From Kaistella sp. SH40-3 (GTDB lineage: Bacteria > Bacteroidota > Bacteroidia > Flavobacteriales > Weeksellaceae): a DNA stretch of 64,000 nucleotides. Where the stretch lies: positions 62,001 to 126,000 of the forward strand of contig NZ_JAQYUS010000005.1 in NCBI RefSeq assembly GCF_030686865.1, written 5' to 3'. The notes below the pieces were generated by a model. That model was not told the DNA's origin and ran no database searches. It was given only the letters and a program-made list of their open reading frames with translations. The position numbers and the translations under genes were made by a program. Each line of letters begins with the position of its first letter. The first letter of the stretch is position 1. This document shows, piece after piece, positions 530 through 39,317 of the stretch.

Positions 530-3313
530 CTACAATTTCTGTTTCAAATATTTCCCCGTATGCGATTTTTTATTATTCACCAAATCTTCGGGAGTTCCTT
601 CAAAAACAACTTCGCCACCGTATTTTCCGGCTTCCGGGCCGATGTCGATAATGTAATCTGCGGTTTTGATAATATCGGGTTGGTGTTCAATAACGATTAC
701 TGAATGTCCAAGTTCTATTAAGGCCTGAAGGGATTTTAATAATTTATTAATATCGTGAAAATGCAAACCTGTTGAAGGTTCATCAAAAATAAATAATGAT
801 TTATCGGTCGTTGCGCCTTTTACTAAAAACGAGGCTAACTTTACTCTTTGTGCCTCACCGCCGGAAAGGGTAGAGGAACTTTGGCCCAATTGTAAATAGC
901 CCAAACCAACGTCCTGCAAAGGTTTTAGTTTGGTAACAATTTTCGGCTGCTCATTATCTTTAAAAAACTCCAGCGCTTCGTCAACGGTTAAATGAAGAAT
1001 ATCTGAAATGTTCTTTTCGTCGAATTTAATTTCGAGGATTTCGTTTTTAAATCTTTGTCCTTTACAGGTTTCACATTCCAATTCAATATCAGCCATAAAC
1101 TGCATGGATACGGTAATTACACCTTCACCTTTACACTCATCACATCGTCCGCCATCCACATTAAAAGAAAAATGTTTTGGCATTAAACCCTGCATTTTTG
1201 CCAGTTTCTGTTTTGAGAACAAATCACGAATATCGTCGTAGGCTTTGAGGTAAGTCACCGGATTTGAACGCGAAGATTTACCAATCGGATTCTGATCGAT
1301 GAGTTCAATATTTTTAATGAGTTTCGTCGGGAAATCTACAGAATCGTAATTGCCCTTTTTTCCGCCCATTCCCAGTTGAATCTGAATGTCATTGGTCAAA
1401 ATTTCTTTCATTAAAGTAGATTTTCCACTTCCTGAAACTCCTGAAATTACGACCAGACATTCCAGCGGAATATCAACATCAATATTTTTCAAATTATTTT
1501 GTCGAGCGCCTTTAATATGAATCCATTCTTTTGGTTTACGACGGCTTTCCGGAACTTTTATTTCTAATCTTCCAGTCAGATATTTTGAAGTTAAAGTGTC
1601 TGCATTTTCGAGTTCATCAAAGTTTCCAGCGAACACCAATTCGCCACCAAGATACCCGGCTTCCGGACCAATGTCGATGATGTAATCTGCGGCTTTCATT
1701 ACGTCTTCATCGTGTTCAACAACGATTACGGTGTTTCCTAAATCACGAAGACTTTTTAAAACTTCAATTAAATTTTCAGTGTCTCGGGAATGCAGACCAA
1801 TCGAAGGTTCATCTAAAATATAGATCGATCCAACCAACGAACTTCCGAGTGAAGTCGCTAAATTAATACGCTGACTTTCCCCACCAGAAAGCGTATTCGA
1901 GGTTCTGTTAATGGTTAAATATCCCAAACCAACTTTATCCAAAAATTCTAAACGCGTCGTAATTTCGTACAGCAAACGTTTTGCAATTTCAGCATCGTGT
2001 TTGTTGAGTTTTAATGATTTTATTAATGGTAAAAATTCATCTAAAGGCAATTCAATCACCGACTGAATATTATGTCCGTCGATTTTTACCCATTTTGTTT
2101 CTTCGCGCAAACGCAAACCTTCACAAGTCGGACAAAGCGTTTTTCCACGGTATCTGGAAAGCATAACGCGGTATTGAATTTTATACAAATTCTCCTCCAG
2201 CATTTTGAAGAAATTATTAATTGAAGGAAAATCAGAAGTTCCATCTCCTTTCCATAAATAGTTTTTCTGCTCCTTTGTTAACTGATGATAAGGCTTATGA
2301 ATAGGGAAGTCTTTGGCTTTTTTAATGAAACTTCTTTTCCATTCGCTCATGCTGTCGCCTTTCCAACTCGCCACGGTTTCTTCAAAAACGGATAAATTTT
2401 TATTGGGAATCACCAGATCTTCATCGATGCCAATTACTTTTCCGTAACCTTCACATTCCGGACAAGCACCGTAAGGATTATTAAAACTGAAGAAATGAAC
2501 ATTTGGTTCCATGAATTCCATTCCATCCAATTCGAATTTGTTGGAAAATTCTGTAATTTTCCCGGTCTCAATATTTTTTAAAGAGCAATAGCCGCGACCT
2601 TCATAAAAAGCCATTTGAATAGAATCTGCCAATCTCTGTAAGAAACTTTCGTCCTCTTCATAACTGAAACGGTCGATCACCAATTGAATTTCCATATCGG
2701 CTTCAGGTACAAAACCGAAACTTTCTAAATCCTCGATTCCTGCTACATTTCCGTTGACTTCTAATCTCGTAAAACCGGATAGTTTTAAAGTATTGACTTG
2801 CTCCGTAAATTTTTCAACATCAAATAGTAGAGGAGTCGTTAAAAGAAAAGTCTGGTTTTCATTTTTTTCAATGAAAGTAATAACATCGGTTACCGAATCC
2901 TTCTTCACTTCATTTCCCGAAACTGGCGAAAATGTTCGTCCAACTCTGGCGAAAAGCAGTTTTAGATAATCATAAACTTCCGTAGAAGTTCCAACGGTTG
3001 AACGTGGATTCGAAGAAATAACTTTCTGCTGAATCGCAATTGAAGGAGCCAAACCTTTAATATCATCAACTTTTGGCTTTTCTAATTTACCTAAAAACTG
3101 TCTTGCGTAAGAACTCAAACTTTCCACGTAGCGCCTTTGTCCTTCAGCGTAAATGGTATCGAAAGCGAGCGACGATTTTCCACTTCCCGAAACTCCCGTG
3201 ATTACGATGAGTTTGTTTTTAGGAATCAGAACATCAATATGTTTCAGATTATTAAGATGCGCATTTTTTACAAAAAGTTGTTTCTTAATATCGATATCTG
3301 TGGGTGTAGTCAT
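530..3313 (-). CDS. uvrA: UvrA-family excinuclease ATPase (possible second UvrA paralogue)
   Basis: This 927-aa protein has tandem ABC ATPase modules. Walker A motifs are at residues 40-47 and 625-632, the first signature LSGGES is at 475-480, and Walker B with [10 protein letters not shown] is at 499-508. Two zinc modules have intact Cys pairs: C284/C287 with C394/C397, and C724/C727 with C747/C750. UvrA dimers scan DNA for bulky lesions and load UvrB in nucleotide excision repair. The segment after LLFARVG reads RTFSPVSG, whereas most UvrA1 proteins have a CPxC-type sequence there. Together with the diverged [14 protein letters not shown] stretch this suggests the second UvrA paralogue that many Bacteroidota carry, rather than the canonical one. 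The gene is monocistronic, with a terminator behind it. Confidence 0.9.
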
Positions 3314-3504
3314 TATAAAATTTAAAGGCTACAAAATTACGGAATTTTTAAGAGAAATTTCCTGAAGATAATTTGGAGTTCCGGATATTTTTTGCAATAT
3401 TTGTTTCAACAAATAAATGTAGTAATATCATGAGAAAAATTTTGAATGATCTGATTACACATTTGATGAAATTAAGATAAGTTTTAACTTTAATCTTCAA
3501 AAGG

Positions 3505-3534
3505 AATGCAGCGCTTCGGTGTTGCATTTTTTTT
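3505..3534 (+). terminator. Strong UUCG-capped terminator upstream of the DUF2490 gene
   Basis: AATGCAGCGC and GTGTTGCATT pair over 10 bp (two wobbles) around a TTCG tetraloop, and eight T follow. No annotated plus-strand gene precedes it. Just upstream, 3430-3480 encodes a possible 16-residue peptide (MRKILNDLITHLMKLR). The hairpin may end a short transcript or act as an attenuator for the next gene. Confidence 0.75.
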
Positions 3535-3554
3535 GATTACACTTTTTTTTCTTT

Positions 3555-3562
3555 TATTTTTG
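3555..3562 (+). promoter_or_regulatory. -7 element TATTTTTG for the DUF2490 gene
   Basis: It matches the Bacteroidota -7 consensus TAnnTTTG and ends 4 nt before the ATG at 3567. If used, the transcript would be leaderless or almost so. Confidence 0.5.
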
Positions 3563-3566
3563 CAAG

Positions 3567-4283
3567 ATGTCAAAACGGATTCTTCTACTTTCCACTTCTC
3601 TTTTTATGCTGAATTTATCAGCACAGAAAGAATCGATTTCCAGTTATAATGTGATTACGGTTAACTATAAGCATAATAAGAAAATATTCGCTTATGCCGA
3701 AGGTCAGTTGCGTGGTATTTCAGATTATTCTTATCCGGACTATTATGAAATTAAAGTTGGTGTCGGTTATAATTTGACCGAAAATCACAAGCCTTTAATC
3801 GGAATTGGAAGATATGTAAACTACAAAAACCATTCTTTAGAAAAAGAAGAATTTCGGGTTTGGTTGCAAGATATTTACGATATTAAGGTCGGCAAATTTA
3901 AATTCGAAAATCGTTTTAGAGCCGAAAAAAGTTGGTTTTATAATAGTTTGAAAGATGAACATTCTGATCGGATTCGTTTGCGTTATCGACTTAATATTTC
4001 AATGCCTTTAAATGCAGATAAAGTTGCACCTGGAACGCTTTCAGCCATGGCTTATGATGAAACATTCTTCGTTGTAACTGATGATCCATTGTTTGCAAGA
4101 AATCGGGTTTTTGGTGGATTTTCTTATCAAATTGATAACAACTTTGCGATTACTTCTGGGTATCTTTGGCAAAGAGAATTTGCTAATTCGGGCAATAAAA
4201 ACTTACATTTTATCTACCTCGGCTTATCTGTAAATATCGATCGCACAAAATCACAGAAAAAAGACTTGCCAGATCTGGATTAA
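3567..4283 (+). CDS. DUF2490 outer-membrane beta-barrel protein
   Basis: This 238-aa protein has an N-terminal signal peptide (MSKRILLLSTSLFMLNLSAQ, cleavage after SAQ). Alternating aromatic and polar strands follow, such as YYEIKVGVGYNL and FRVWLQDIYDIKVGKFKFENRFRAE, then a C-terminal strand ending in LHFIYLGLSVNID. The pattern and length match the DUF2490 family of Bacteroidota outer-membrane barrels, whose function is unknown. It is monocistronic between a UUCG terminator and the dnaN promoter. No substrate can be inferred. Confidence 0.8.
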   Translation: MSKRILLLSTSLFMLNLSAQKESISSYNVITVNYKHNKKIFAYAEGQLRGISDYSYPDYYEIKVGVGYNLTENHKPLIGIGRYVNYKNHSLEKEEFRVWLQDIYDIKVGKFKFENRFRAEKSWFYNSLKDEHSDRIRLRYRLNISMPLNADKVAPGTLSAMAYDETFFVVTDDPLFARNRVFGGFSYQIDNNFAITSGYLWQREFANSGNKNLHFIYLGLSVNIDRTKSQKKDLPDLD

Positions 4284-4351
4284 TGTTGGTAACTTTTTCA
4301 CGGAAACAGTTTTTATCACCCAAAATATTGCATTTTTTAGGGTTTAATTTA

Positions 4352-4359
4352 TATATTTG
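4352..4359 (+). promoter_or_regulatory. -7 element TATATTTG for dnaN
   Basis: An exact TAnnTTTG match lies 24 nt before the dnaN ATG at 4384. A TTG at 4328-4330 could serve as the -33 element (21-bp spacer). Confidence 0.6.
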
Positions 4360-4383
4360 TGAAATTAATAATAATTGATTTTT

Positions 4384-5514
4384 ATGAAATTTATTGTTTC
4401 AAGTAGTGAATTACAGAAAGCCTTACAGACAGTGAGCGGAGTGATCTCCAATTCTCAGTCCCGTCCAATTTTGGAAAACTTTTTGTTTGAAATCGAAAAA
4501 GATATACTGAAAATTACCGCTTCGGATGGTGAGACGACTTTAATTACTTCCTTGGATGTGAAGTCTGACGTTGAAGGTAAGATTGCAGTTCCCGCAAAAA
4601 TATTTCAAGAATTTGTGAAAACTTACGGTGACCAACCTTTAACGCTTTCTGTGAAAGATGCTGAAGATGGAAACGGAAAGTTGCTCGAAATTTTGGATGA
4701 GAAAGATAACTTCGCAGTGGCACTAGATCACGCAGAAGATTATCCGGAAATCCCTGAATTCGATGCGGCTCAAAGCGTAACGATTTCTGCAGGTATCTTA
4801 TCTGAAGCATTAAATAATACTTTATTTGCAACCAGTAATGATTCTCTTCGTCCAGTAATGACGGGAGTTTTGTTCCAATTCAAAGAAGATGAAACCAATT
4901 TCGTTTCTACCGATTCGCACCGTTTAGTGGTTTATAAAAGAACCGACTTAATGAATGCTGAACCAGTAGAATTCATTATGCCGAAAAAACCTTTGGCAAT
5001 TTTCAAAAGCATCTTAGCATCTTCTAACGAAGAAGTTTCTATTGAGTTTAATGAAAATATGGCGAAGTTCACTTTCGGAAATAATATCTGGATCTGTCGT
5101 TTAATTGATGGAAAATATCCAAATTATTCCGCGGTTATTCCAAAAGAAAATCCAAATATTTTAACGATTAATAGAACTCTTTTATTGAACTCCATTAGAA
5201 GAGCCTCGATTATGTCGAACAAATCTACGAACCAGGTTCGTTTCAAATTATCAGGAAATATTCTTCATTTGCATGCAGAAGATACTGAGTTTGCAAACAA
5301 AGCAGATATGCAGATTCCTTGCGATTACAACGGAGAAGATATTAATATCGGTTTTAGTTCTAAGTTTTTAACGGAAATGTTATCCGTACTTTCTGCTGAT
5401 GATATTACCATGAAAATGTCTCAACCAAACAGACCGGGAATTATCGAACCAGTTGATGGTTTAGAAGATCAAGAAAAATTACTGATGCTTTCAATGCCGG
5501 TTATCGGAATGTAA
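4384..5514 (+). CDS. dnaN: DNA polymerase III beta subunit (sliding clamp)
   Basis: This 376-aa protein begins MKFIVSSSELQKALQTVSGVI and ends LLMLSMPVIGM, the clamp C-terminus next to the hydrophobic client pocket. Three repeated clamp domains of about 120 residues are evident. The clamp encircles DNA and tethers polymerase III and other clamp-binding proteins. A TTG at 4375 is also in frame, but the ATG at 4384 gives the conserved MKF start and lies a normal distance from the -7 element. dnaN is not next to dnaA or recF here, and no DnaA-box cluster was seen, so this locus is not evidence for the origin. Confidence 0.97.
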   Translation: MKFIVSSSELQKALQTVSGVISNSQSRPILENFLFEIEKDILKITASDGETTLITSLDVKSDVEGKIAVPAKIFQEFVKTYGDQPLTLSVKDAEDGNGKLLEILDEKDNFAVALDHAEDYPEIPEFDAAQSVTISAGILSEALNNTLFATSNDSLRPVMTGVLFQFKEDETNFVSTDSHRLVVYKRTDLMNAEPVEFIMPKKPLAIFKSILASSNEEVSIEFNENMAKFTFGNNIWICRLIDGKYPNYSAVIPKENPNILTINRTLLLNSIRRASIMSNKSTNQVRFKLSGNILHLHAEDTEFANKADMQIPCDYNGEDINIGFSSKFLTEMLSVLSADDITMKMSQPNRPGIIEPVDGLEDQEKLLMLSMPVIGM

Positions 5515-5547
5515 GAAAAACAGTTTTAAATAATTGCACTAAATATT

Positions 5548-5586
5548 AATTGAGATTCAAAGTTTTTGAATCTCAATTTTTTTTTA
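5548..5586 (+). terminator. Terminator after dnaN
   Basis: Near-perfect inverted repeat AATTGAGATTCAAA / TTTGAATCTCAATT followed by about ten T. Confidence 0.85.
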
Positions 5587-5675
5587 ACCTTCAAAATCAC
5601 GATATTTGCACCTTTCCGGTTTCAAGGTCTTTATTAATGAAATCGAAAATATAACATCTGAAATTTACGACAGAA

Positions 5676-8078
5676 ATGAAAATCTCAAACAACTGGCTGA
5701 AAGAATACATAGACACTGATATCAAATCTGAAAAGATTGGCGAATTCCTGACCGATATTGGTTTGGAAGTAGAAGGAATCGACCCTTTTGAATCGGTAAA
5801 AGGAAGTTTAGAAGGAATCGTTGTTGGGAAAGTTTTAACTTGCGAACAACATTCCAATGCTGATAAATTAAAAGTAACAACAGTTGATGTTGGATCTGGA
5901 AAAATCTTAAATATCGTTTGTGGAGCGCCAAATGTTGCAGCCGGACAAACTGTTCCTGTAGCAGTCGTTGGAACGAAAATTTACGGAAAAGACGGAAGTT
6001 CGTTTGAAATTAAAGAAGCCAAAATTCGTGGTGAAGTTTCTCAGGGAATGATTTGCGCAGAAGATGAACTGGGCTTGAGCGATGATCACGGCGGAATCAT
6101 GATTTTAGATGAAACGAAATTTGAAGTAGGTAAAAACTTCGCAGATTATTTTGATCTTACCAACGATAAAGTTTATGAAATCGGTTTAACGCCAAACCGA
6201 ACTGATGCGATGTCGCATTACGGTGTTGCCAGGGATTTGAACGCCTATTTAAGTACGCATCAACTTGCTTCTACCTTTGAAAAAATGGTTTCTCAACCTT
6301 TAAATAATGAAGGAACTACCGATTTTCAAATTGAGGTTGAAGATTCTGAATTGTGTCCAAGATATATCGGTGCAGTGATCGAAAATGTGGAAGTAAAGCC
6401 GTCTCCGGATTGGTTAAAAAACCGTTTGAAAGCGATTGGATTAAGTCCGATTAATAATATTGTAGATATTACGAATTATATTCTTCACGGTTTTGGTCAG
6501 CCGCTTCATGCTTTTGATGCTGATAAAATTGCAGGCAAAAAAGTAAAAGTTGGAGTGAGTGAAAAAGGAACAAAATTCACCACTTTAGATGGTGTTGAAA
6601 GAACGTTGAACGGAACCGAAATCATGATTAAAGACGGCGAGAATAACCCAATGTGTATTGCTGGTGTTTTCGGGGGACAGACTTCTGGAGTTTCTGAAAC
6701 TACGAAAACCATCTTTTTAGAAAGCGCTTATTTCAACCCGATTGGAATTAGAAAAGGCGCGAAATTTCACAGTTTAAATACCGATGCTTCTTTCCGTTTT
6801 GAACGCGGAGTTGATCCAAACATGACCAGAACTACGCTGACTCATGCCGTGAAAATGATTGCTGAAATTGCTGGTGGAAAAATGGTTGGTGAACTTCTAG
6901 AACATTATCCTACAAAAATAGAAGACCATTATATTATTCTTCGTTTTTCTAAAGTTGAACAAATTTTAGGAACGAAAATTCATCAGGAGAAAATTAAAGA
7001 AATTCTGAAGTCTTTAGAAATTACCGTTTTAAATGATATTCAAAATGGATTAGAAATTTCTGTTCCTGCATACAGAGCCGATGTTACGAGAGAAATCGAT
7101 GTTATCGAAGAGATTTTAAGAATCTACGGGTACAACAAAATCGATTCTCCGCAGAAAATTTCTTTTACACCGGTGAAATTAAGTTTTGATGATCAGGATG
7201 CTTTGGAAAATGCTTGGGCGAGAACTTTACAAAGCAATGGTTTCAATGAAGTGATGAACAATTCTTTAACTTCTGTAAAAGACGAAACTGATGCGGTTCG
7301 TTTGTTAAATCCATTAAGTGGAGATTTGGCATTTATGAGAAAGTCTTTATTAGAAGGACTTCTGGAAAATGCAGATTATAACATCAAAAGAAAAAATCAA
7401 AATATTAAGTTCTTTGAATTAGGTAAAATCTACCACAAAAAAGGAACCTATTTAGAGAGAAAACAACTTGCGATTTTGGTTACAGGAAGAGATGAAGCAG
7501 AAAACTGGTTACAGCCAAAATCTACTACTGATTTCTATAGATTAAAATCTTATGTGAAAGTTCTTTTAGACGCACTTCCGGTTTCAATCGAAGAAAAATC
7601 TTTAGAAGATGCACGTTTTTCAGATGCAATTGAATTATCAGCAAATGGAAAAACCGTAGCGAGATTAGGAAAAGTTGCTCCGGAATTATTGAAAGATGCG
7701 GATATCGAGCAGGAGTGTTTCTATGCCGAAATCGAATTGGAAGTTGCTCAGAGTTTCAGAACAAAAGAGAATTTGAAATTTAAAGATATTCCGAAATTCA
7801 ATAAAACCAGAAAAGATTTGGCTTTATTGATCGATAAAAATGTGACTTACGCTGAACTTTATAAAGCAGCCAGAAGCAATCCTTCCAAATATTTAAAGAA
7901 TATTAATTTATTTGATGTTTATGAAGGCAAGAACCTTCCGGAAGGCAAGAAGTCTTATGCAATGAGTTTTGAATTATTAAACGAAGAAAAAACTTTAGAA
8001 GATAAAGACATTACCGAAGTGATGAATTCTTTGATTAAAACCTTCCAGAAAGAATTTTCTGCGGAGTTACGATCTTAA
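5676..8078 (+). CDS. pheT: Phenylalanyl-tRNA synthetase beta subunit
   Basis: This 800-aa protein has the bacterial PheT architecture. An EMAP-type tRNA-binding domain covers about residues 40-150 (VVGKVLTCEQHSNADKLKV). B3/B4 editing, B5 and catalytic-like core domains follow. The C-terminal FDX-ACB anticodon-binding domain begins near residue 705 (FKDIPKFNKTRKDLALLID). With PheS it charges tRNA-Phe in an alpha2beta2 complex. pheS is not adjacent. The start MKISNNWLKEYID is the standard PheT N-terminus. Confidence 0.97.
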   Translation: MKISNNWLKEYIDTDIKSEKIGEFLTDIGLEVEGIDPFESVKGSLEGIVVGKVLTCEQHSNADKLKVTTVDVGSGKILNIVCGAPNVAAGQTVPVAVVGTKIYGKDGSSFEIKEAKIRGEVSQGMICAEDELGLSDDHGGIMILDETKFEVGKNFADYFDLTNDKVYEIGLTPNRTDAMSHYGVARDLNAYLSTHQLASTFEKMVSQPLNNEGTTDFQIEVEDSELCPRYIGAVIENVEVKPSPDWLKNRLKAIGLSPINNIVDITNYILHGFGQPLHAFDADKIAGKKVKVGVSEKGTKFTTLDGVERTLNGTEIMIKDGENNPMCIAGVFGGQTSGVSETTKTIFLESAYFNPIGIRKGAKFHSLNTDASFRFERGVDPNMTRTTLTHAVKMIAEIAGGKMVGELLEHYPTKIEDHYIILRFSKVEQILGTKIHQEKIKEILKSLEITVLNDIQNGLEISVPAYRADVTREIDVIEEILRIYGYNKIDSPQKISFTPVKLSFDDQDALENAWARTLQSNGFNEVMNNSLTSVKDETDAVRLLNPLSGDLAFMRKSLLEGLLENADYNIKRKNQNIKFFELGKIYHKKGTYLERKQLAILVTGRDEAENWLQPKSTTDFYRLKSYVKVLLDALPVSIEEKSLEDARFSDAIELSANGKTVARLGKVAPELLKDADIEQECFYAEIELEVAQSFRTKENLKFKDIPKFNKTRKDLALLIDKNVTYAELYKAARSNPSKYLKNINLFDVYEGKNLPEGKKSYAMSFELLNEEKTLEDKDITEVMNSLIKTFQKEFSAELRS

Positions 8079-34246: not shown

Positions 34247-34417
34247 AAGGAGAATTATCTTTAGAAAATTGGTAAGTGCAATTTACCGCTTTAAAGGGGG
34301 ATTTCATAAAAATATCGCAGTGAAATTTAGAAAAAAGAAGTAATGGAAAAAGAGAGGAGAAAAGGAATTAGATTTTAGATTATTTTACAAAATCCTTTGA
34401 AATTTAGAGAAAATGAC

Positions 34418-34432
34418 AACCTTGACAAGGTT
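34418..34432. repeat. 15-bp palindrome AACCTTGACAAGGTT
   Basis: Perfect except for the central base, and one base different from the palindrome at 23720-23734. A T run follows on the plus strand, so it could also terminate plus-strand transcripts. Confidence 0.65.
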
Positions 34433-34603
34433 TTTTGAGTATCAAAGTACTCAATGCTTTGAAAATCTGCAGCGCCGGAAAAAACCTTTTCATTGCTGCA
34501 AAAGTAAGGTCATTATAATCTCTGTCCCAATTTTTAACAAACTTTATAGATTCAAGACTATTAAACTGGAGTGGGAGTTATACTTTGTTATTATTAGCCA
34601 CAC

Positions 34604-34649
34604 GAAAGGATTCGTGCGGGAGCGGGGAAAGGATTTGTGCGGGGGTGGG
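34604..34649 (+). repeat. Two tandem 23-bp G-rich repeats
   Basis: Unit 1 begins GAAAGGATTCGTGCGGGAGC and unit 2 GAAAGGATTTGTGCGGGGGT, each ending GGG. They differ at three positions. The G runs (GGG, GGGG, GGGGG, GGGG) on the plus strand stand out in a genome of this base composition. Directly beyond the 3' end of the HEPN gene. Confidence 0.75.
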
Positions 34650-34660
34650 GGAAATTCAAT

Positions 34661-35641
34661 TTAATTTTTTGTGCTATCAGTGATTTTGCAAAAAAATTTT
34701 CGATTTCCTGTAAGATTTGTATTACTTTTTAATTTTAAAGTTAAATCATTATTTTCAAATGATTTAATATTGAGAATTTCAGCACTTTGAAAAGATCCGT
34801 CACTTTTCATAATTACTATTAAACTTTCATTAGTGACAGCTATATTTTTAAGATTTGAAAATCCAAGAATGTTTCCCGCGAAAACTTTTGCATTTTCAAT
34901 TTCAATACAATGAAATTTTCTCCAATACTTTAATTTTTCTTGTTCCAAATCGATTGTAAGAATTTTGTGTAAACTCTTAAAGTATTTTTCAATGAAATTA
35001 ACATATTCAACTATTTGACTTGGGTCTAGTAATGAAATAACACTTCCGTGAGCGACCTCATTTCGCATTTCTACTAATTCATCTAACTTTATAAATTGAT
35101 TTTCGGAATTTGATAAATTAAAATCTGTATGTTTACGAAATTCTTGATTTAAATCTAAATCTATTTGTTTAAATAGTTCACATACTTTTGCATGTTTCAT
35201 ATTACCAGATAAAATGGTAAAACCATCATAATTAAGTAAATAATTTGGAACATCTGTAAGGCAAGAATTTAAATTTCTTATCAGATCAACTTCCTTTAGA
35301 TGTTTATATTTAAGGTATTTATTATCAAAAACTTTTAGTGTAAGATCTGCAGAGTTTCGAATATTCTTTTTTTTAATAACTTCTTTTAAATTTGAATATT
35401 CCGAAATTACTGTACTTAAATTCTCAAGGTATGTTTTGATAAATCTATCACAATAGTTTTCTACAATACCATATAGAGAAATTATTAAAGATTTATAATT
35501 AAAGGTTCGTTTCGTTATTGAATTGACATATATGTATAGTGAACTTGTCTCACCTATTTCCGTAGTAATATTCTGAATATACTGCAAATGTTGTCGTAAT
35601 TCAATTATTTCATCGTCAAATTTTTTTAATGAAGAATTCAT
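34661..35641 (-). CDS. HEPN protein, MAE_28990/MAE_18760-like
   Basis: This 326-aa protein is mostly helical in its first 230 residues. It has the HEPN RNase motif R193-N-E-V-A-H198 (ELVEMRNEVAHGSV) and the paired earlier helix NYKSLIISLYGIVENYCDRFI typical of MAE_28990-type HEPN proteins. A C-terminal part of about 90 residues looks beta-rich. HEPN R-x4-H enzymes are metal-independent RNases in toxin-antitoxin, CRISPR and abortive-infection systems. Its ATG overlaps the DUF262 stop by one base (TAATG), so the two are coupled. Very AT-rich: one 60-base line holds only 14 G+C. Role as the effector of a defence pair is inferred. Confidence 0.8.
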   Translation of the reverse strand: MNSSLKKFDDEIIELRQHLQYIQNITTEIGETSSLYIYVNSITKRTFNYKSLIISLYGIVENYCDRFIKTYLENLSTVISEYSNLKEVIKKKNIRNSADLTLKVFDNKYLKYKHLKEVDLIRNLNSCLTDVPNYLLNYDGFTILSGNMKHAKVCELFKQIDLDLNQEFRKHTDFNLSNSENQFIKLDELVEMRNEVAHGSVISLLDPSQIVEYVNFIEKYFKSLHKILTIDLEQEKLKYWRKFHCIEIENAKVFAGNILGFSNLKNIAVTNESLIVIMKSDGSFQSAEILNIKSFENNDLTLKLKSNTNLTGNRKFFCKITDSTKN

Positions 35642-36852
35642 TATGCAATTGAATGTTCTATTAGATTAGTAAAATATTTGATTCTAGCTTCTACATTACT
35701 CCTGCTGTTATATTTTCCGTCAAATAGATCAATTTTTTTTCCTCTAGATTCATACGTTATTTTTTCTAAATCTTTAAATTTTGATTCTCGAATTGTTGAT
35801 TGATTGCTTAAAATTACCTTTTCCTTATCAAGATTCATTGAAAATGCCTGCATTATTGAATCGTAAATAGTTTTTGTAGGAGTACTTTTCTTTTGAGTGC
35901 TTTCCGGCATATAAAATGCGCTTTCTCCAAAAAGAGAATAAACAAGTTCGACAGTTTTTGAAAAAATATTTTTTAACTCAATTAATAGATTTGGTTGATA
36001 TTGATTAGCTATTTGCAAGTAATTGTCTAAGAATTGTTCTTGTGACCTAAAGTTAGAAAGTTGTTCAATATGTCGGTAAGCAAAAAATCTTAAAATCATT
36101 TCAACGTCTTCCATTTTTCTAAAAGTCTCATCTACCAATAGTTCGTCTTCATTCATCAATTTACCATTGGAATATTTGTAAGATGTATAATTCCATAATT
36201 TTCTAAACGTATCATTTTTAGACAACTCGATACAAAATTCATTGAATTTTCCGGCATATAGCGCATTTCTAGTTTCCTGGGGAGTTAATTTATCCCCACC
36301 ACTGTTAAGTCTTCCAAATACCATTTGTTTAAGCGAATCTGCAATTTCTTTATCTTTAGCAGTTTCATTTAAAAGCACAATTGAAGAAAGATACCTACGG
36401 TCAATACCTTCTTTAATATTTTTTGGAAGTTGAGAATATTTTCTACCATTTAATTCTTTCCATTCTTCTAGACCACTTAGCGCAAATTTATCAGTATAAA
36501 AATCATTTATTGCTGTAAGTCTTTGTAAGCCATCCATTACCTCATACTTTGCATAAACAACTTCATATAAAAAAATTGGAGGTATTGGTACATTTATAAT
36601 AAAGGATTCGATAAGTTTTGACTGTTGTACAGTGCTCCACCTTTTTCTTCTTTGATATTCTGGATTTAAATCATATTTGCCACTTTCAAGCATTGACGGG
36701 ATAGTATCTAAAGGATAGCGCGCTTGTTCGGTAATAATTCTAATTTCACCTTTTGAATATTTTTCATTAATATCAGAATCAGATATTACAGAACTTTTAC
36801 CTTCATCTAGCTTATAAAAGTTTATAAATTTTTCCCCGTTTAATAAGTTCAT
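35641..36852 (-). CDS. DUF262 domain protein (ParB/Srx-like)
   Basis: This 403-aa protein has an N-terminal DUF262 fold: YPLDTIPSMLESGKYDLNP (47-65), EYQRRKRWS (65-73), LIESFIINVPIPPIFLYE (80-97) and the catalytic-type motif DGLQRLTAI (107-115). The family norm is DGQQR; here Leu replaces the first Gln. The rest is helical with no DUF1524 HNH nuclease domain, so unlike GmrSD/BrxU/SspE it lacks its own obvious DNA-cutting part. DUF262 proteins bind or hydrolyse NTPs and sense foreign DNA or RNA in defence systems. Translationally coupled to the HEPN gene. Its upstream gap to fadE holds only the fad operon terminator. Confidence 0.85.
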   Translation of the reverse strand: MNLLNGEKFINFYKLDEGKSSVISDSDINEKYSKGEIRIITEQARYPLDTIPSMLESGKYDLNPEYQRRKRWSTVQQSKLIESFIINVPIPPIFLYEVVYAKYEVMDGLQRLTAINDFYTDKFALSGLEEWKELNGRKYSQLPKNIKEGIDRRYLSSIVLLNETAKDKEIADSLKQMVFGRLNSGGDKLTPQETRNALYAGKFNEFCIELSKNDTFRKLWNYTSYKYSNGKLMNEDELLVDETFRKMEDVEMILRFFAYRHIEQLSNFRSQEQFLDNYLQIANQYQPNLLIELKNIFSKTVELVYSLFGESAFYMPESTQKKSTPTKTIYDSIMQAFSMNLDKEKVILSNQSTIRESKFKDLEKITYESRGKKIDLFDGKYNSRSNVEARIKYFTNLIEHSIA

Positions 36853-36985
36853 ATTGATTATTTGTTTCTTTTTAATAGCTTTATCGAATGTAATTATTTC
36901 AATGTTAAATATACAAACAAATCCAATATTCCATTAAGGTAATTTGAAAAAATTATTAACTTCATTTTATGATAATGCTAATCAT

Positions 36986-37017
36986 GAAAAAGAACGCCCC
37001 GATTTCTCAGAGCGTTC
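36986..37017 (-). terminator. Terminator of the fadNAE operon
   Basis: On the minus strand GAACGCTCTGA and TCGGGGCGTTC form an 11-bp stem (two wobbles) with a GAAA loop, followed by TTTTT. It lies 22 bp past the fadE stop. Confidence 0.88.
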
Positions 37018-37038
37018 AAACCACATATCAAACTATTT

Positions 37039-38826
37039 CTAGTAAGATCCTTTTTCCACGAAATGCGCTGCAACTTTTTCAGTTAAGGCAACTACATTTG
37101 GCATATTGGTGTATTTTGTAAATCTGCGTAATCCAGAAAGCATCATGCGCTGTTCGTCGCCTTCTGCGAACGAGACAATTCCTTCTTTCGCTGCGGTAGA
37201 AATAGCTTCTACAGCTTTGTAAAGATTTAATCTCGCCATTGCTGCTTCTACAGAATCGGTATCGAAATGTTTTTCTGCTCTTAAAACTGCAGATTCTGCC
37301 ATATAGATCTGGTTCAGAATTTCAGAGGCATTTAATAAAAGATGCTGCTGTTTTTCGATTTCCATCATGTATTTCTGAAGCGCTGCTCCGGCAACCATTA
37401 AGAATACTTTCTTCAAGTTGTGAAGAATTGCTCTTTCTTCAGACATATATTCTGAATAATCTGGAACTTCAAAAGACGGAATTCCCATCAATTCTTTTCC
37501 GATCGCCATGGCTGGTTTCAACAAATCAAGTTCGCCTTTCATTGTTTTCTTGATCAACATTCCTACGGCAAGAAGTCTATTAATTTCGTTGGTTCCTTCA
37601 TAGATTCTTCCAATTCTGGAATCTCTCCAGGCTGCTTCCATTGGTGCATCTTCGGAGAATCCCATTCCACCGTAAATCTGAATTCCTTCGTCTGCGATAT
37701 GTTGGGTTAAATCTGAAACGTACACTTTAAGAATTGAACATTCTACGGCATATTCTGCCAAAGCGCTTAATTCTGCTTCTGCGTGAGACATTCCACCCGC
37801 AACGAATTCCTCAATTTTATCTTCTACATTTTTCGCTGCACGGTAAGAACCTGCTTCAGAAACGAAAATTCCTGTTGCCATTTCTGCAATTTTCTTACGG
37901 ATCGCTCCGAAAGTTGAAATAGAAACGCCGAACTGTTTTCTTTCATTTGCGTAGTTGATGGCAAGTCCTGTAATTCTTCTCTGTCCGTCAATGTTTGCAG
38001 CGGCTAATTTAATCCGACCTGCGTTTAAGGCGTTGATCGCGATTTTGAAGCCATTGTTTCTTTCGCCCAATAAATTTCCTACCGGAATTTTCATATCGTT
38101 AAAGAAAACCTGACGCGTAGAAGAGGAGCGGATTCCTAATTTGTGTTCTTCTTCGCCCATGGTCATGCTGTTTGGATCTTCCAGTTCAGAACGGTTGATG
38201 ACGAAACCTGTAATGTTTTTATCGTCTTCAATTCTTGCGAATAACGTGAATGTATCTGCAAAACCTGCATTCGAGATCCACATTTTCTGTCCGTTGATGA
38301 TATAATGTTTTCCATCTTCTGAAAGAACGGCTCTCGTTTTCCCGGAGTTTGCATCTGAACCTGCATCAGGCTCTGTCAGACAGTACGCTCCGAATTTTTC
38401 ACCTGTTGCTAAAGCGGGAAGGTATTTTTGTTTCAATTCTTCCGTTCCGTACAAAAGGATAGGAAGCGTCCCGATTCCCGTATGCGCTCCGTAAGCAGTT
38501 GCCAAAGAACCGTTCGCGCCGGAAACCACATCGCAGGTCAACATTGTACTCACAAATCCCATTCCGAGACCGCCGTATTCTTCCGGAACTGCAATTCCCA
38601 AAGTTCCCATTTCACCCAATTTCCGCATGGTTTCTTCGGTCAGTGCGTAATCTTTTTTCTCGAAACGCTCTCTGTGTGGGATGACGTCTCTTTCCATAAA
38701 TTCAGTAATTGAATCCCGAAGCATTTTTTGCTCATCGCTCAATTCTTCAAGACTGAATAGTTCTGCTGCAGGAATATCTTTGATGATGAATTCACCGCCT
38801 TTTAATGTTGTTTTTGTATCGCTCAT
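37039..38826 (-). CDS. fadE: Acyl-CoA dehydrogenase (FadE)
   Basis: This 595-aa flavoprotein has the acyl-CoA dehydrogenase core. Flavin- and substrate-binding parts include YCLTEPDAGSDANSGKTRA and KMWISNAGFADTFTLFARI, and the catalytic Glu lies in GRIYEGTNEINRLL. A C-terminal extension of about 170 residues matches the roughly 594-aa Bacillus FadE type rather than short-chain enzymes. It makes the first double bond in acyl-CoA oxidation and passes electrons to ETF. It is last in the marR-fadN-fadA-fadE operon, separated from fadA by an inserted four-helix-bundle gene. Confidence 0.95.
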   Translation of the reverse strand: MSDTKTTLKGGEFIIKDIPAAELFSLEELSDEQKMLRDSITEFMERDVIPHRERFEKKDYALTEETMRKLGEMGTLGIAVPEEYGGLGMGFVSTMLTCDVVSGANGSLATAYGAHTGIGTLPILLYGTEELKQKYLPALATGEKFGAYCLTEPDAGSDANSGKTRAVLSEDGKHYIINGQKMWISNAGFADTFTLFARIEDDKNITGFVINRSELEDPNSMTMGEEEHKLGIRSSSTRQVFFNDMKIPVGNLLGERNNGFKIAINALNAGRIKLAAANIDGQRRITGLAINYANERKQFGVSISTFGAIRKKIAEMATGIFVSEAGSYRAAKNVEDKIEEFVAGGMSHAEAELSALAEYAVECSILKVYVSDLTQHIADEGIQIYGGMGFSEDAPMEAAWRDSRIGRIYEGTNEINRLLAVGMLIKKTMKGELDLLKPAMAIGKELMGIPSFEVPDYSEYMSEERAILHNLKKVFLMVAGAALQKYMMEIEKQQHLLLNASEILNQIYMAESAVLRAEKHFDTDSVEAAMARLNLYKAVEAISTAAKEGIVSFAEGDEQRMMLSGLRRFTKYTNMPNVVALTEKVAAHFVEKGSY

Positions 38827-38925: not shown

Positions 38926-38962
38926 TCTATTGTCTGTTGGTCTATTATCTTTTAGTCTTTTA
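38926..38962. repeat. 37-bp direct repeat, left copy
   Basis: TCTATTGTCTGTTGG... matches 39361-39397 at 30 of 37 positions, in the same orientation. The two copies bracket the four-helix-bundle gene. A further related, partly inverted stretch lies at about 38862-38892. Confidence 0.65.
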
Positions 38963-39317
38963 ATGTGTTTTGGAAAACCATCGTAGCACGTTGAAATTCT
39001 TCAATTTTACTTTCTAATGAAACAGTAAGTTCATCAGAAATATATTTTTTATAGTTTGCTAAAATAAGTTGGGTTTGCAATTCGAATGATGAACCTAAAG
39101 ACATATCTAAGAAATGACTGAAAGATTTATTAGTTCTACTTGAACCTTCGGCTACATTTGATACTATTGAAACGGAACATCTATCCATCTGACTTCGCAT
39201 TCCAAAATTTTCAAAGGACGGAAAGGCGACAGTGATATCTGAAATGTTTTTCGCAATTTCCATAGCCTAATGCCAAATTTTCAATTTTTTGAAATTATGT
39301 CTTTTAAAATCGCTCAT
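38952..39317 (-). pseudogene. Four-helix-bundle (S23/IVP-type) protein gene with in-frame amber codon
   Basis: From an ATG at 39317 the frame reads MSDFKRHNFKKLKIWH, then TAG at 39267-39269, then A and an ATG at 39263 opening 103 codons. The sequence resembles the TIGR02436 four-helix-bundle family (FGMRSQMDRCSVSIVSNVAEGSSR). The start xDFKxLKIWxxAMEIAKNI is the usual family N-terminus, so the stop interrupts a formerly complete gene of 121 codons. Residue 17 is normally coding. A shorter product from 39263 lacking the first helix is possible. It sits between fadA and fadE, with 37-bp direct repeats overlapping both ends, which suggests an inserted module. Confidence 0.75.

Follow-up and report, generated by a model that had tools for sequence, protein, structure and literature searches.

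In GmrSD, BrxU and SspE a DUF262 fold is found together with a DUF1524 HNH (His-Me) nuclease, and QR, DGQQR and FxxxN are given as the motifs of GmrSD-type DUF262 domains (PMC12137116). Operons joining HEPN proteins to members of the ParB superfamily were tabulated already in 2013 by Anantharaman et al., where Ribo L-PSP-type HEPN proteins are listed with ParB, and HEPN proteins of the MAE_28990 family with a ParB nuclease and a DNA methylase, as predictions only (PMC3710099). The experimentally supported case is PD-T4-2, whose deletion from ECOR65 led to more plaquing of phage T4 (PMC9519451); a review places this system under both DUF262 and the HEPN family PF18735 (PMC10952713).

A gene pair of this kind is present in Kaistella sp. 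SH40-3 (Weeksellaceae, Bacteroidota), in a stretch of 64,000 nucleotides of contig NZ_JAQYUS010000005.1 (positions 62,001 to 126,000), hereafter called the window, where a gene for a DUF262 protein is directly followed by a gene for a HEPN protein. The pair is real, conserved and mobile. It is very likely a mobile two-gene anti-phage system related to PD-T4-2, and probably one in which a nucleoside triphosphate (NTP)-dependent DUF262 sensor would license a HEPN ribonuclease (RNase) during infection. An earlier sequence-only reading of the locus had put it forward as a candidate defence or conflict system; this candidacy gains from the mobility of the pair and its kinship to the validated PD-T4-2, while the newness implied there falls away, as the combination of DUF262/ParB and HEPN is already contained in the 2013 table (PMC3710099) and in PD-T4-2. 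The general idea is known, and what the present analysis adds is a clade of such pairs, the long tail of its HEPN proteins and a split of DUF262 proteins according to their partners.

Comparison with described systems

With PD-T4-2 the window pair has in common a DUF262 protein matching the PADLOC model PD-T4-2_A (9.3e-37, residues 53-369) and the HEPN Pfam family PF18735. The window HEPN protein, however, has no match to PD-T4-2_B at E<=1, and the proven system is therefore only a relative of the window pair. The HEPN proteins of two PD-T4-2-type pairs from E. coli (L010 and L116) comprise 191 and 211 amino acids, whereas that of the window has 326 and a long tail. This comparison was made through the PADLOC models and the two E. 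coli pairs, not through the ECOR65 sequence. The best PADLOC match of the window DUF262 protein is NsnA (1.1e-67). NsnA and NsnB are presumably Menshen, judging from the AAA/DUF3696 ATPase NsnB and the wording of the review (PMC10952713); among the papers listed for the names NsnA, NsnB and NsnC none dealt with these proteins, and those listed for Menshen did not contain NsnA or NsnB. NsnB is an ATPase (AAA_15/DUF3696), whereas the partner in the window is a HEPN protein. The DUF1524 nuclease of GmrSD, BrxU and SspE is absent from the window pair, which has a separate HEPN gene. The operons of Anantharaman et al. agree with the window in the HEPN families and the ParB-superfamily partner. HEPN/MNT toxin-antitoxin pairs share the HEPN fold with it, but the partner here is DUF262 and not an MNT nucleotidyltransferase.

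Arrangement and conservation of the pair

Both genes are located on the minus strand, DUF262 first and then HEPN, and their open reading frames (ORFs) overlap by one base, 35641, within the sequence TAATG.

35641..36852, minus strand: DUF262 ORF (GmrSD_N, ParB/Srx-like NTPase fold), 403 amino acids, without DUF1524; predicted sensor or regulator
34661..35641, minus strand: HEPN ORF, 326 amino acids; predicted RNase effector

Re-reading of the sequence confirmed what the sequence-only reading had given as coordinates, strand, TAATG overlap and motif residues, R193 and H198 included. The very low guanine plus cytosine (GC) content described there is also borne out: the HEPN gene (24.6 %) and the DUF262 gene (29.2 %) are the two lowest in GC among the 48 non-overlapping ORFs of at least 150 amino acids in the window (35.0 % GC as a whole), and the GC-rich neighbour is a P-type ATPase gene with 43.3 %.

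Because the HEPN protein is a poor probe, searches were led by DUF262 and the gene directly downstream was then identified. As a query, the HEPN protein retrieved its own copy alone in the phylum sample (1 of 395 genomes) and 1 of 72,556 plasmid records; over 25 pairs the mean pairwise identity is 18 % for HEPN and 37 % for DUF262. Of the 65 DUF262 rows compared, 26 reach E<1e-45 (16 of them viral, one the window itself), and every one of these 26 has a HEPN gene directly downstream, in the same order and in near-contact; one of the two HEPN profiles behind this count derives from an alignment (A3) in which 19 of these HEPN proteins are included. The own copies (L001, L012, L042), a near-copy (L102, of L101, both within the viral set) and the flank loci L043-L090 had been removed before counting, and L114 and L115 missed the E-value limit of the 65-row set. 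Adjacency of the two genes, the co-occurrence of which had been proposed for checking, is thus not rare.

In viral contigs a single-protein query gave nothing confirmed, and an alignment query gave 23 DUF262 loci. This alignment (A1) consists of eight HEPN-partnered DUF262 proteins, and the viral loci therefore sample that branch. By a HEPN profile made without viral loci, HEPN is found downstream in 16 of the 17 loci at tblastn E<=8e-50; the seventeenth (L097) has the motif RNIVSH and a sub-gathering match to PF18735 (2.5e-5), and the remaining six loci, at E 7e-12 or worse, gave no HEPN. Both DUF262 loci on genome contigs are HEPN-paired. The phylum sample contains DUF262 relatives in 38 of 395 genomes, at 43 places at 1e-15, and 29 loci were examined there besides the own one. 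Their partner is HEPN in 11 cases by profile and in three by Pfam (L015, L023, L036), an ATPase in 12 and another protein in three (L024, L027, L039). Weak HEPN calls are L014 (Pfam 1.6e-4) and L036, both below gathering. Eleven further loci (L004-L011, L116-L118) were hand-picked from hit lists, L117 and L118 from listings already naming HEPN, and therefore provide no unbiased count.

The two proteins have diverged in parallel: their distance matrices correlate with a Mantel r of 0.81 (25 pairs; not reached in any of 5000 permutations), a value that would arise from joint inheritance of both genes alone.

The DUF262 protein

The DUF262 protein belongs to PF03235 (GmrSD_N, 5.6e-25) and has, in addition to the PADLOC matches mentioned, one to REase_II (1.1e-10). 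In Pfam neither protein of the pair matches a DUF1524 or GmrSD C-terminal model at E<=1, in line with the absence of DUF1524 reported before. The sequence NPEYQRRKRW starts at residue 63 and DGLQRLTAI at residue 107, and all three motifs of GmrSD-type domains are found, with L replacing the first Q of DGQQR.

36649..36654, minus strand: QR motif, Q67 and R68, invariant in 19/19 DUF262 sequences of alignment A4
36520..36534, minus strand: DGLQR motif, residues 107-111, counterpart of DGQQR; D107, G108, Q110 and R111 invariant in 19/19
36304..36318, minus strand: FxxxN motif, F179 and N183, both invariant in 19/19

A strict QR pattern is not matched in 12 of the 41 paired DUF262 rows, all of them distant. 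The structure model (mean predicted local distance difference test score, pLDDT, 84.4) aligns with BrxU 7p9k (Z 8.1, 276 residues aligned, root mean square deviation (rmsd) 12.5, BrxU residues 1-420), the ParB-like PadC (Z 7.1, 94 aligned, rmsd 3.2) and SspE 6jiv (Z 6.7, 129 aligned, rmsd 3.8). Against the sequences of solved structures, a DUF262 profile found BrxU at E 0.096.

The HEPN protein and its C-terminal tail

Two Pfam families match the HEPN protein above their gathering thresholds, PF18735 (HEPN_RiboL-PSP, 1.1e-15, 58.5 bits vs 28.4) and PF18737 (HEPN_MAE_28990, 1.3e-11), and the sole PADLOC match is RTasHEPN (4.3e-4). Its model (mean pLDDT 83.6) consists of a helical part bearing the active-site motif and a less confidently modelled tail.

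34925..35641, minus strand: HEPN helical domain, residues 1-239, with a structure match to the toxin of an MNT/HEPN pair
35048..35065, minus strand: RNEVAH active-site motif, R193, N194 and H198; R, N and H invariant in 19/19 (alignment A3)
34679..34912, minus strand: C-terminal beta-barrel by model, residues 244-321, of the type seen in EF-Tu domain 2, the F1/V1 N-terminal barrels and others

The closest solved folds for the helical part are HEPN/MNT toxins, 7ae6_A (Z 10.3, rmsd 4.2, 137 aligned, residues 1-235) and 7ae8_A (Z 9.8, residues 1-239). Besides the three motif residues E61 is invariant in the 19 aligned HEPN proteins, and R-x4-H is found in 39 of 41 paired ones, so the degenerate active site against which the prediction had been hedged is not seen. 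The two misses are a short ORF (L011) and the 5' half of a split gene (L004). In the latter case, located on a Nostoc plasmid, two ORFs (6195-6599 and 6612-7226) make up the HEPN gene, while the DUF262 gene next to them is intact; the 3' half retains RNQIAH, and the split gene may be an inactivated effector.

In the tail, six strands are modelled within residues 245-304 and one of low confidence at 316-319, with pLDDT blocks of 64-82 up to residue 310 and below 50 beyond it. The barrel matches are tied between a GH110 glycosidase (7jw4_B, Z 6.9), EF-Tu (5i4q_C, Z 6.8, 72 aligned, rmsd 2.5) and, both at Z 6.7, V1 (5ze9_D, of the V1/F1 N-terminal barrels) and a lambda tail-tip protein. As these scores are tied, the resemblance to EF-Tu is not specific, and only a likeness of fold is claimed, because a Z near 7 may reflect a common arrangement. 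The Pfam model GTP_EFTU_D2 gave no match at E<=1, a Foldseek search with the HEPN model gave nothing at E<=0.001 (top rows V-ATPase barrels and EF-Tu), and a HEPN profile found nothing convincing among the sequences of solved structures (best E 0.052, a DNA glycosylase). The 2013 table records a fusion to endoRNase L-PSP and, for some HEPN proteins of the MAE_18760 family, an N-terminal domain rich in beta structure; in the passages covered of this table and of section 10 of the same paper no C-terminal barrel was found (PMC3710099).

Partner split and the long-tailed clade

A tree of 65 DUF262 proteins with L110-L113 as outgroup separates 45 HEPN-partnered from 13 ATPase-partnered rows, with three other rows scattered among them; the HEPN label of L015, L023, L036 and L116 was taken from Pfam, annotation or PADLOC. 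The forks that divide them are only moderately supported (83/90 and 87/86), and L036, L018 and L092 are among the long rows of the tree. Scans of two ATPase partners show both to be NsnB-like (AAA_15, DUF3696). The E. coli pairs L010 and L116, the partners of which match PD-T4-2_B (4.4e-4 and 1.4e-8), stand on the HEPN side. PD-T4-2-like pairs, Menshen and GmrSD can thereby be seen on one footing, as a DUF262 module combined with HEPN, an AAA/DUF3696 ATPase or HNH.

The window protein falls into a clade of 15 DUF262 proteins (support 98/89) accompanied by long-tailed HEPN proteins. In the 14 measurable members of this clade 118-152 residues follow R-x4-H, in contrast to 30-69 in 24 of 25 HEPN proteins outside it (the exception is L014 with 121). 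The barrel was modelled for the window HEPN alone, and any resemblance of the other 14 tails to it would be an extrapolation from this model. The clade looks new as an element of this pair type: no description was found in the titles and passages covered of the papers listed for DUF262-HEPN pairs, PD-T4-2, these HEPN families, or HEPN with ParB, GmrS or methyltransferases, a set that excludes most subscription papers.

Mobility and neighbouring methyltransferases

Plasmids, a P2-like Vibrio phage and IMG/VR viral contigs carry close relatives of the pair, and P2-type phages and prophages carry DUF262-HEPN pairs that are more distant. In E. coli the L116 pair (2964-6827), whose partner matches PD-T4-2_B, lies between genes for a prophage CI repressor and an integrase. 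On the viral contig L109 (4771-6309) a gene for a CAP12/Pycsar-type TIR protein follows the pair.

Several relatives are accompanied by DNA methyltransferases. Within the clade, a C5 methyltransferase and an NgoPII-type endonuclease are encoded downstream in L002, and a methyltransferase gene is located directly upstream in L009, L094, L095 and L096 (N4/N6 by Pfam in the last three, a large DNA methyltransferase in L009 and L094). According to the tree, L009 and L094 are close kin, as are L095 and L096. In these two viral contigs (1762-5318 and 1781-5307) an N4/N6 methyltransferase, DUF262 and HEPN follow each other within 50 bases as a three-gene unit, which from its sequence resembles a restriction-modification system whose output is an RNase. 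Outside the clade, a C5 methyltransferase gene adjoins HEPN in L008, L117 and L118. At L029 (3176-3997, minus strand) a gene recognised by eye as a C5 DNA methyltransferase lies directly upstream of an ATPase-partnered, Menshen-like DUF262, and the methyltransferase link may therefore extend beyond the HEPN side. No DNA methyltransferase adjoins the window pair; in the own genome the C5 and PF01555 families were searched, with no match to PF01555 over cut-off and two C5 enzymes outside the window (contig C5:62001-126000), at C2:455151 and C5:49199, each 26-29 % identical to that of L002.

Proposed function and alternative explanations

The present evidence concerns the anatomy and the evolution of the pair, and from these we infer a function. 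The DUF262 protein, a predicted NTPase of ParB/GmrSD fold, would recognise a sign of infection, most likely a state of the invading DNA, and its binding or hydrolysis of NTP would license the HEPN partner. The latter would then be the effector, an endoRNase using its RN-x3-H motif and cutting host and/or phage RNA, by which phage growth would be stopped, probably via a stalled infected cell. The C-terminal tail of the clade may direct the nuclease by offering a surface for binding RNA or a partner. A narrower version, in which DUF262 reads DNA methylation, the output is an RNase and not a DNase, and an EF-Tu-domain-2-like barrel steers it to transfer RNA (tRNA) or the translation machinery, is a long shot. 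Should the long-tailed clade turn out to cut tRNA or to target translation, it would clearly exemplify a coupling of DNA sensing with RNA cleavage. If the methylation-reading version were true, it would amount to restriction in which foreign DNA is met by a halt of translation. Several points speak against an anti-phage function of the window pair: the missing PD-T4-2_B match, the 12 ATPase and three other partners among the 29 phylum loci, and the fact that no recognised defence gene adjoins the window copy by eye. In addition, the main text of the original account of PD-T4-2 does not once name DUF262. The passages of that account on the deletion state neither the domains of the system nor whether it is abortive (PMC9519451).

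An overlapping gene pair with relatives on plasmids and phages, and with a HEPN/MNT toxin as the closest solved fold of the helical part, could also be a toxin-antitoxin addiction module, in which DUF262 as the antitoxin keeps the HEPN toxin inactive and any effect on phages is secondary. This is improbable, as DUF262 retains the three NTP-site motifs in 19/19 sequences, which is beyond the need of a passive antitoxin, the family contains a validated defence relative, and an MNT partner is missing: the pair is bordered by genes read by eye as a P-type ATPase and an acyl-CoA dehydrogenase, and the partner itself is DUF262 by Pfam. Rather unlikely, though compatible with the anti-phage sensor and effector proposed here, is a branch of restriction-modification in which a methyltransferase marks self DNA, the presence or absence of this mark is read by DUF262, and HEPN provides the output. 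The methyltransferases next to the pair in L002, L009, L094, L095, L096, L008, L117 and L118, the MAE_28990 entry of the 2013 table and the two C5 enzymes of the own genome agree with it; yet none adjoins the window pair, the five cases among the 14 other loci of the clade amount to two close-kin pairs plus L002 (the flanks of L013 and L091 being short), and the own C5 enzymes have the low identity to that of L002 given above.

DUF262 itself could be the effector, a DNase or nicking enzyme, and HEPN a suicide RNase serving as backup, a role that has been proposed for other HEPN proteins linked to restriction. Proteins of the ParB/Srx superfamily are stated to nick DNA (PMC12839542), and the backup idea is argued in section 10 of the 2013 paper (PMC3710099). 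In Pfam, however, DUF262 has no nuclease domain match beyond GmrSD_N, its model matches DUF262/ParB/Srx folds, and the presence of HEPN in 26/26 close rows is unlike an optional backup, which makes this explanation quite unlikely.

The chromosomal site and its neighbourhood

The pair is flanked by the P-type ATPase gene on one side and the acyl-CoA dehydrogenase gene on the other, both named by eye from their proteins.

34402..36986, no strand: variable stretch with the cassette, 27.9 % GC; homology to genus relatives stops at or near both ends

The dehydrogenase gene is present in 33 of 40 genomes searched and the ATPase gene in 7 of 13, the own genome counted in both. On the dehydrogenase side homology stops at about 36987 in 24 genus relatives (listed range 36949-37049) and slightly earlier, near the gene end, in more distant genomes; on the ATPase side DNA homology stops at 34401 (G400, G401) or 34433 (G407). 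These three relatives keep both flanking genes at a distance of 2.7-2.9 kb, and the intervening DNA has no match to the cassette. In G411 3.2 kb separate the flanking genes and carry an IS110-like gene (by eye) and a Mrr-type gene (Mrr_cat 5.7e-20; L083 1847-2536, beside the transposase gene); G417 has 6.3 kb of other content between the same genes. A true empty site was not seen among the relatives compared. Since homology stops at the cassette edges and other DNA lies between the same flanks, the cassette is cargo at a variable site. The case for a defence hot spot is weak, with a restriction-type gene in one of the five relatives G400, G401, G407, G411 and G417 and the rest judged by eye.

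The distribution within the genus is patchy: 3 of 36 genomes carry a DUF262 relative, namely the own genome, G407 (L091, in a different place, 51 %, HEPN-partnered) and G397 (L092, ATPase-partnered), and PF18735 has a single occurrence in the own genome. Beyond the acyl-CoA dehydrogenase gene, between it and a thiolase gene of a fatty-acid oxidation cluster, lies a 103-amino-acid ORF (window 38952-39263, minus strand) that by eye resembles a four-helix-bundle protein of the 23S rRNA intervening-sequence type.

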